DNA of 64,000 nt from Oscillospiraceae bacterium (GTDB lineage: Bacteria > Bacillota > Clostridia > Oscillospirales > CAG-272), in the NCBI GenBank assembly GCA_015063385.1, contig SVUG01000003.1:1-64000 (forward strand). Direction: 5' to 3'. Of this stretch, positions 5,650 through 56,425 are shown in pieces; position 1 is the first letter of the stretch; every line of letters starts with the position of its first letter. A program made the translations under genes and the position numbers. The notes below the pieces were generated by a model, which saw only the letters and a program-made list of their open reading frames with translations, was not told the origin of the DNA and searched no databases.

Positions 5650-5678
5650 ATAAGATTTATAATGGTTATAGAATGTAG

Positions 5679-5836
5679 AAAAGGCTCAGAAGCCTTTTCA
5701 CGGCTGAAAATCAGCCGTAGCAAAAAGCAAAGAATAGCTTTTTGCCACTATATCATTGCAACAGAAATCGACAAGTTTCTTTTTTGAAACTTGTTGGCAA
5801 ATCAAAGATTTGCCGTCGAAATTCACGAATTTCGAC
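5679..5836. repeat. Tandem array of six distinct short perfect hairpins
   Basis: Stems of 8-9 bp at 5679-5698, 5700-5718, 5720-5745, 5771-5794, 5796-5814 and 5815-5836, all with different sequences. Confidence 0.8.
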
Positions 5837-5927
5837 TTTCGATTGTCGTTATCAGCGTAATGCACTGAAATTAGCTGCATATATATTATATCTCCAATAT
5901 GTAAAAAAGTCAACAGAAATATTTTGA

Positions 5928-5957
5928 CAAAAATCCCCCTGCTTTTGGCAGGGGGAA
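5928..5957 (-). terminator. Intrinsic terminator of purC
   Basis: Minus strand ccccctgccaaaagcagggggattttt. Confidence 0.8.
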
Positions 5958-5962
5958 AGGGC

Positions 5963-6661
5963 TTATCTATTGTTTATAATTTTGGTAAGCTCAATGGGGT
6001 CAACTATTTTGCCGTCCTTATATACTCTCATATTGCCCGATGCAATCTCGTCGATAAGAATGACCTCACCGTTATTGTAGCCAAACTCAAACTTTATATC
6101 CCAAAGGTCAAGACCGATGGACTTAAGGTCGTCTGCAACAATCTTGGTGATTTTGAGAGTCTGATCCTTGAGGCTCTTGAACATCTCCTCGGTCATAACC
6201 TTGAGTGCAACAAGGCCCTCACCGGTGACAAGCGGATCGCCCTTTTCGTCGTTTTTGAAGGTACATTCAACGTATCCGCCCTCAAGAGGAGTACCGTCCT
6301 TGATATACTCGCCGTATCTGCGGATGAAGCTACCGGTTGCAACGAGTCTGCAAATTACCTCAAGACCGCCGCCTCCAAGCTCCTTGCCGAAGCACTCAGC
6401 GGGGAGAACCTCCATAGTAGCGTTCTCAATATCTGCGCTGACGTAGTGCGTCTTGATGCCTGCCGCCTTCAGAAGCTCGAAATAATGCACGGATGTCTGA
6501 AGGTTTGCCTTGCCTATGCCCTCGATAGTGAGGCCAACTGCGTTTTCACCGGGATCGAATACTCCGTCCTTGCCGGTGCAGTCGTCCTTGAATTTAAGCA
6601 TTACGTTGCCGTTATCAAGAGCGTAAACGTCCTTTGTTTTACCCGAATAAGTCTTAACCAT
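5963..6661 (-). CDS. purC: Phosphoribosylaminoimidazole-succinocarboxamide synthase
   Basis: [80 protein letters not shown] synthetase motifs. Confidence 0.95.
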
Positions 6662-13574: not shown

Positions 13575-13656
13575 GGTAAGGATTTTTGCAACCGACGGTG
13601 AGCGGAATAGACCGCGAGGGAGCAAAAATTTTGATTTATGTCGACCGTCTGGGCAG
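13575..13656 (+). ncRNA. ZTP (pfl motif) riboswitch
   Basis: …gacggtgagcggaatagaccgcgagggagcaaaaatttt…cgaccgtctgggcag directly upstream of purE; matches pfl conserved GGGAGC and CCGNCUGGGC elements. Confidence 0.87.
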
Positions 13657-13687
13657 AACTACCTTATGGGGTAGTCCTGCCCTTTTT
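13651..13687 (+). terminator. Riboswitch expression-platform terminator
   Basis: gggcagaactaccttatggggtagtcctgccctttttg; left arm overlaps the conserved ctgggc of the aptamer. Confidence 0.85.
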
Positions 13688-25651: not shown

Positions 25652-25669
25652 ATATTTTTAATGCTAAAT

Positions 25670-25702
25670 AAAAAGACTAGCGAAAATCGCTAGTCTTTTT
25701 AT
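25670..25702. terminator. Bidirectional intrinsic terminator
   Basis: aaaaagactagcgaaaatcgctagtcttttt perfect stem. Confidence 0.85.
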
Positions 25703-36034: not shown

Positions 36035-36072
36035 AAGAACAGCCCCTTTTCGTAAGGGGCTGTTCTTTTTCT
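36035..36072 (+). terminator. Intrinsic terminator
   Basis: aagaacagccccttttcgtaaggggctgttctttttc. Confidence 0.85.
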
Positions 36073-38940: not shown

Positions 38941-38955
38941 AAAACAAAAAACAAA

Positions 38956-38983
38956 AAACGCCGAGAAATCGGCGTTTTTTATT
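38956..38983. terminator. Bidirectional intrinsic terminator
   Basis: aaaaaacgccgagaaatcggcgtttttt. Confidence 0.8.
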
Positions 38984-55381: not shown

Positions 55382-56425
55382 TTGGGACCGATACCAACCA
55401 TACTTATAGCTATATTAGTTTTCGGCTTTCTCATTTTCATTCACGAGTTCGGACATTATATATTTGCAAGAATTTTTAAGGTGACGATTAAGGAATTTTC
55501 GATAGGCATGGGCCCGAAAATTCTTAAGTACACCTCGGAAAAGACGGGTATCTGTTATGCTATTTCGGCAGTTCCGCTTGGTGGCTACGTTGCTATGGCG
55601 GGCGAGGACGAGGAGTCTGACGACCCGAACGCATTCAACAAAAAGCCCGCGTGGCAGAGACTTATAATAACGGTTGCAGGCGCAACTATCAATATTATCG
55701 CGGGCTTTATAGCGATGATAATAATCACTGCTGTCATTGACATCGGTGGCACTACTGTTCACAGCTTTGGATACGGTGACTATGAGGTTTCCTCCGAGCA
55801 GTCAGGACTTATGGCAGGCGACACGATTATCCGCGTTGACGGTAAGCGCGTTCGCATAGCTGACGAGCTTTCATACGAGATTATGCGCCGCGGACACGAG
55901 CCTATTGATATTACGGTTATCCGTGACGGCGAGGAAATTACACTTCGTGACGTCGTTTTCCCAACCGACAGCGAGGCAGGGCAGACCTTTGGTATGATGG
56001 ATTTCTATATCCTTGCCGTTGACAAGACCTTTGGCAATACTCTCGGCTATGCCTTTTCTAAATCGGCGCTTATAGTGCGTATGTGCTGGGAGTCGATATT
56101 TGACCTGATTACAGGCAGGTATTCTCTGGGCGCGGTTTCGGGTCCTGTCGGAATTTCCGAGGCGATAGGTGATGCGGCAAAGGCGGGCACGCTTCAGCTT
56201 CTTAATATTGTTGCCCTTATTAGCATCAACCTAGGTGTGATGAATCTTATGCCGATTCCCGCACTTGACGGTGGAAGAATGATAACCACTCTAGCTGAGA
56301 TGATAACCCGCAAGAAAATTCCCGCAAAAATTGAAGCAACCATAAACGCCGTTGGCCTTGCAATCCTGCTTGGCTTCTCGGTGATAATACTGATAAAAGA
56401 CGTAATAATGCTGTTTATAGGATAG
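55382..56425 (+). CDS. rseP: RIP site-2 metalloprotease (TTG start)
   Basis: FGFLIFIHEFGHYIFAR (HExxH), AVPLGGYVAMAGEDE, PDZ region, NLMPIPALDGGRM. Confidence 0.95.
   Translation: MGPIPTILIAILVFGFLIFIHEFGHYIFARIFKVTIKEFSIGMGPKILKYTSEKTGICYAISAVPLGGYVAMAGEDEESDDPNAFNKKPAWQRLIITVAGATINIIAGFIAMIIITAVIDIGGTTVHSFGYGDYEVSSEQSGLMAGDTIIRVDGKRVRIADELSYEIMRRGHEPIDITVIRDGEEITLRDVVFPTDSEAGQTFGMMDFYILAVDKTFGNTLGYAFSKSALIVRMCWESIFDLITGRYSLGAVSGPVGISEAIGDAAKAGTLQLLNIVALISINLGVMNLMPIPALDGGRMITTLAEMITRKKIPAKIEATINAVGLAILLGFSVIILIKDVIMLFIG

Follow-up and report, generated by a model that had tools for sequence, protein, structure and literature searches.

The window analysed here is the whole 64,000-nucleotide stretch of DNA, in which purC and the tmRNA gene (ssrA) both lie on the minus strand with the presumed native tmRNA promoter between them (Table 1). 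Six near-perfect hairpins, at 5678-5836 in the 64-kb window, occupy the space between this promoter and the tmRNA gene. An earlier note on this DNA had reported six inverted repeats here, and all of them were present; it had given their extent as 5679-5836, where the hairpins do lie, but the feature is longer, running from 5659 to 5852 with terminal inverted repeats and two closing stems. The purC terminator, which the note had set apart from the array, proved to be a real, separate hairpin. The note was also right to hold that the array is not accounted for by ordinary termination.

Table 1. Features of the tmRNA locus and of the six-hairpin element, in window coordinates.
Feature	Position	Strand	Basis or remark
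tmRNA gene (ssrA), tag DNNKVALAA	5282..5649	-	
Whole element (ATAATGG...CGTTAT), 194 bp	5659..5852	+ (family-model orientation)	Bounds from 98-99% identical copies; ends compared over ~95 copies
Left terminal inverted repeat ATAATGGTTATAG	5659..5671	+	Conserved end
First half, closing stem around hairpins 1-3	5661..5757	+	MFE and centroid fold; pairs counted
Hairpin 1	5678-5699	+	Stem 9 bp; first half
Hairpin 2	5700-5718	+	Stem 8 bp; first half
Hairpin 3	5720-5745	+	Stem 9 bp; first half
Second half, closing stem around hairpins 4-6	5760..5850	+	MFE fold; pairs counted
Hairpin 4	5771-5794	+	Stem 9 bp; second half; compensatory changes seen
Hairpin 5	5796-5814	+	Stem 8 bp; second half; compensatory changes seen
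Hairpin 6	5815-5836	+	Stem 9 bp; second half
Right terminal inverted repeat (CGATTGTCGTTAT on +)	5840..5852	-	Conserved end
-10 box TATAAT, presumed native tmRNA promoter, 17-bp spacer	5885..5890	-	
-35 box TTGACT, presumed native tmRNA promoter	5908..5913	-	Sequence; relatives' promoters
purC terminator hairpin	5934..5956	-	
purC (SAICAR synthetase)	5963..6661	-	Pfam PF01259, E 1.5e-39

Perfect hairpins (stem of at least 8 bp, loop of 3-10) numbered 23 when counted over the 64-kb window, and six of these fell within the 159 bp of the array, whereas no other 200-bp window contained more than one. First-order shuffles of 5659-5852 (n = 3000) never produced more than two, and the MFE z-score of the array strand against shuffles was -9.6 when folded as RNA and -10.8 when folded as DNA. 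A chance origin in AT-rich DNA, which the note had also doubted, was rejected on the shuffles and z-scores. The array matched nothing in Rfam at gathering or permissive thresholds, at which the window yielded only the tmRNA and a ZMP/ZTP riboswitch (13578-13661, plus strand, RF01750, 59.6 bits). Further long perfect hairpins with 12-16 bp stems, possibly terminators, were observed at 25668-25702, 36035-36067, and 38953-38980.

In four relatives, TTGAC[AT]-17/18-TATAAT was found approximately 20-30 nt before the tmRNA, the leader was short, and the element and its hairpins were absent. As the window element sits between the presumed promoter and the tmRNA, it is predicted to form part of the pre-tmRNA leader, which it would lengthen to roughly 230 nt; both transcription and maturation of this leader are predictions. 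Among the matches in relatives, none paired purC with the tmRNA gene, so there is no strict empty site for the window copy.

Architecture of the element

The MFE fold of the window copy contained exactly two four-way junctions, each consisting of a closing stem and three hairpins in a cloverleaf-like arrangement. The first closing stem pairs AATG (5661-5664) and TATAG (5667-5671) with CTATA (5748-5752) and CATT (5754-5757); the second pairs AAC (5760-5762) and AATCGA (5766-5771) with TCGATT (5839-5844) and GTT (5848-5850). The element ends on both sides in 13-bp inverted repeats of the ATAATGRTTATAG type, and the covariance model matched the window copy at 5655-5857. When distant copies were aligned, the ends proved fixed and a conserved centre separated two groups of three hairpins, the conservation of the ends being partly fixed by the expressions with which copies were collected. 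The order of the six hairpins was preserved across host families.

At the centre, the end repeat recurs as two internal copies set back to back, so that each half comprises a closing stem and its own three hairpins. The model also matched many copies on both strands, which indicates that each half is a distant inverted version of the other. The note's view that the stems are unrelated in sequence is therefore correct only in part. Some versions have fewer hairpins but keep both ends: L243 is a half element with three, and L258 is a 66-bp element with one. The number of hairpins among versions ranges from one to six. Copies in genome G217 (e.g., L028 and L034) belong to a subfamily of approximately 250 bp, in which a longer, less regular segment (ggttggctcc...gagccaat) replaces a simple hairpin in one half.

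Copies, host range, and insertion sites

The source genome carries five copies of the element according to DNA search and the covariance model. Two copies in tandem elsewhere in the genome (C22:55397-55590 and 55587-55782; 194-196 bp) were 98% and 99% identical to the window copy; the others were a diverged copy (C22:195894-196084) and a shortened one on C15. The covariance model, R1, whose automatic structure spans only the right half and the ends and whose E-values are rough, matched 12 of 295 genomes of the order, over at least nine families. With up to eight candidates scored per genome, G045 and G162 each had at least eight matches, and G217 had at least seven. In G162, DNA search located 47 matches, chiefly to the element or parts of it, and copy number was patchy among related genomes, from none to dozens. 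A pattern built on hairpins 5-6 found 98 stretches among approximately 85,000 species genomes, nearly all in uncultured Clostridia/Oscillospiraceae and mostly from the herbivore gut. A few pattern matches in Lysobacter and Dehalococcoidia were rejected, as neither model search nor inspection by eye found the element there. Outside the order, no copy was found in a 399-genome sample of the phylum except in the source genome itself, and neither IMG/VR (pattern search) nor INPHARED or PLSDB contained a match on a phage or plasmid. The genomes searched are largely MAGs. Because both pattern and model were derived from the element, these copy counts and the host range are lower bounds. Many copies lay at contig ends, as expected of repeats that break assemblies.

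By crude ORF calling, one copy lay inside an ORF and 50 lay between ORFs; divergent spacers were the commonest and convergent ones were rare. The right-hand gene was in sense orientation in 36 of 50 copies. A single intergenic region (L101:1-520) contained two different subfamilies of the element with about 90 bp between them, so that several lineages occur in one genome. At L113:6150-7150 (JAFTKM010000026.1, RGIG3901), we observed an array of at least a dozen palindromes of 14-16 bp, unrelated to one another and connected through TATAAT/TATCAT linkers; the six-hairpin element is inserted twice in this array, and a similar array lies near a tRNA gene in G162 (C39). The shared TATAAT/TATCAT linker suggests that such arrays and the element may be related.

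Comparison with relatives, which had been put forward as the proper test of the array, revealed both dispersed copies and empty sites. The best-resolved site is that of G217:C31, where the element lies between TGTGCTA and TAATATTACTG (GTGCTA[element]TAATATTACTG). At the orthologous site, TATAAT is uninterrupted in G285, G069, and G275; the alignment of G285 with G217:C31 is gap-free at the junction, and the insertion lengthens the site by exactly one element. In G304, two sites that are occupied in G162 are without the element, namely C105, where a 1-bp indel adjoins the junction, and C73, the promoter of a murA-like gene (named by eye from its sequence), where the comparison is complicated by an AAT repeat and by another element, a truncated one. 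At the C64 site, G304 has a native TTGACT-17-TATAAT, with a downstream flank too diverged for alignment. The dispersed, tandem, and truncated copies, together with the empty orthologous sites, demonstrate that the element is mobile.

Across 74 copies, left flanks favoured TT and right flanks AA, the two sides being uncorrelated, and the junctions of tandem copies read CGTTATAATG with nothing added. Judging from these sequences, insertion is into TTATAA/TATAAT motifs, which are sometimes true -10 boxes. The sites are compatible with a target-site duplication of either 0 bp or an invariant 2-bp AT, between which sequence cannot separate. A simple mariner-type TA duplication was rejected, as the aligned empty sites, the restored promoters, and the junctions between tandem copies all agree with there being no added TA; taken by themselves, the flank statistics do not settle this point. 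A -35 box at 17 bp was present at 11 of 213 junctions (~5%) and was enriched over other spacings (11 versus about 1.6). Ordinary TATAAT sites in the same DNA carried such a box with about the same frequency as element junctions (8.7% versus 6.9%), which argues against promoter-specific targeting. The target thus seems to be a TATAAT-like motif rather than a promoter.

Conservation of pairing and competing explanations

Pairing was evaluated on MAFFT alignments built from sequence alone, comprising 37 window-type copies and 26 copies of a second type. In the window-type alignment, 94.1% of cells over 69 pairs were formed, and 72 double changes were counted against 25 ± 3.6 in shuffles; in the second type, 91.4% of cells were paired, with 93 double changes against 28 ± 4.6. 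When partners were slid as a control, only 32-50% were paired. Since the shuffles keep the relatedness among copies, more weight is given to this control and to how many distinct pairs carried double changes, namely 9 in the window type and 27 in the second. The stems thus change in sequence while pairing is kept. Covariance analysis, which the earlier note had suggested, revealed compensatory changes in the stems. Stems were also more conserved than loops in the two alignments (entropy 0.24 and 0.35 versus 0.86 and 1.03).

In otherwise paired columns, the stem mismatches comprised 15 distinct G-T and 16 distinct A-C events (8:8 and 7:8 in the respective alignments); stems of the transcribed strand thus showed no wobble (G-U) excess over A-C in these two alignments of approximately 31 events. 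As there is no bias towards G-T, we infer from these small numbers that the structured molecule is probably DNA and not RNA. This result bears on the possibility that the array is a structured RNA, be it a leader, a regulator, or an ncRNA, with selection acting on its fold as RNA and its dispersal being secondary. The strong fold z-score, the compensatory changes, the mostly intergenic placement with the right-hand gene predominantly in sense, the position of several copies directly behind promoters, and that of the window copy in the predicted pre-tmRNA leader would all suit such an RNA. Selection on RNA should favour G-U, however, and the even mismatches, the lack of an Rfam match, the patchy presence among related genomes, and the inverted end repeats with empty sites, which fit mobile DNA, make this explanation, one of those proposed in the earlier note, unlikely. 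That note had also raised a palindrome-generating mutational process. In such a process, templated correction or template switching would perfect short palindromes and add hairpins, and copies would spread by homologous recombination without a mobilising enzyme. The paired changes of the stems, the L113 array of unrelated palindromes, and the variable number of hairpins are consistent with this process, but empty sites and fixed ends require precise insertion, the stems are more conserved than the loops, and the order of six hairpins is constant across families. Whole elements are present or absent at orthologous sites, and as a sole origin this process appears very improbable.

The note had further named a protein-binding or processing region, and a local role specific to tmRNA or purC was considered in the form of a processing site, attenuator, or insulator. 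It would account for the position between promoter and tmRNA; the other copies lie at unrelated genes, and the tmRNA of four relatives has a short, hairpin-free leader. The dispersed copies refute it as a general explanation, and we consider it extremely unlikely. The search for a mobiliser is relevant to the remaining alternative, that of an element derived from REPINs or IS200/IS605 and moved as single-stranded DNA by a Y1 (HUH) transposase. The hairpin-rich body, the lack of a clear target duplication, and the Y1 genes present in other bearers tested speak for this origin. Y1 transposase was not found in G162 (~90% complete, with dozens of copies), G304 (68% complete), or G275, and the symmetric inverted ends are unlike those of IS200/IS605, so that this origin is quite improbable. 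IS630-type DDE_3 transposase (PF13358) was found in none of 18 genomes, 11 of them bearers (incomplete MAGs). An autonomous long element with paired ends was likewise not found in the loci examined or among the unpaired ends of the incomplete genomes G217 and G045, where many unpaired ends are contig ends.

Taken together, we put the probability at roughly 80% that the array is one copy of a small, non-autonomous, MITE-like mobile family in one order of gut Clostridia; most likely, these non-autonomous mobile repeats are a new family that depends on structure. The element is built as a double four-way junction whose second half is a diverged inverted copy of the first, and it enters TTATAA/TATAAT motifs with at most an invariant AT duplicated. 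In the mechanism we propose, the fold would be needed as DNA, either extruded or single-stranded, and would be recognised by a recombinase supplied in trans. At the window locus, the element may have inserted between the tmRNA promoter and the tmRNA, where it would be transcribed and then cut off with the pre-tmRNA leader, so that the insertion would be tolerated. A more specific version is tentative and, in our estimate, rather doubtful: an undescribed recombinase might recognise the double four-way junction, extruded or single-stranded, by its shape and not by sequence alone, and might join the element into TATAAT without duplication, the insertion rebuilding a -10 box at its border so that host promoters survive.

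Relation to known repeats and significance

Interspersed repeats able to fold, such as bcr1 and BOX, occur in Firmicutes, and double-hairpin elements of fungal mitochondria were reportedly described by Paquin et al. in 2000. Bacterial MITEs, including Correia elements, RUP, and QMITEs, are AT-rich, non-coding, multi-copy intergenic sequences of 100-250 bp with terminal inverted repeats and a foldable transcript, and some carry or adjoin promoters (PMC10969869). They are closest in kind to the present element, which shares their size, terminal inverted repeats, copy number, intergenic siting, lack of coding capacity, and empty sites. It differs in that any target duplication is confined to an invariant AT, unlike the ordinary kind, and in its double four-way junction, which is kept by compensatory change across families and is unusual; moreover, no IS with matching ends was found for it, nor was IS630, as in the Correia/RUP type, found in the bearers tested. 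REPs/REPINs and BIMEs with RAYT transposases (PMC3116915, PMC2817692) are also hairpin-based, dispersed extragenic repeats in inverted arrangement. In contrast to these, the element has six hairpins with closing stems and symmetric inverted ends, and no RAYT/Y1 was found in G162, the genome with the highest copy number. The fungal-mitochondrial double-hairpin elements (PMC5910586) and the yeast mitochondrial GC clusters (PMC4478555), compared here through secondary descriptions, are likewise mobile, non-coding hairpin repeats; as so described, they are organellar with two hairpins, whereas the element is bacterial with six. BOX (PMC3049150) and bcr1 resemble the element only in kind. No description of the element family was found in the open-licence papers searched.

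If this interpretation is correct, uncultured gut Clostridia harbour a widespread family of miniature mobile DNA that apparently has not been described before. The elaborate fold kept across host families and the insertion without the usual duplication would point to a recombinase that reads structure. The element would also explain some of the assembly breaks and odd 5' leaders in MAGs of gut Clostridia, and the window locus would be a naturally occurring example of a pre-tmRNA whose leader is both very long and structured, as predicted here.
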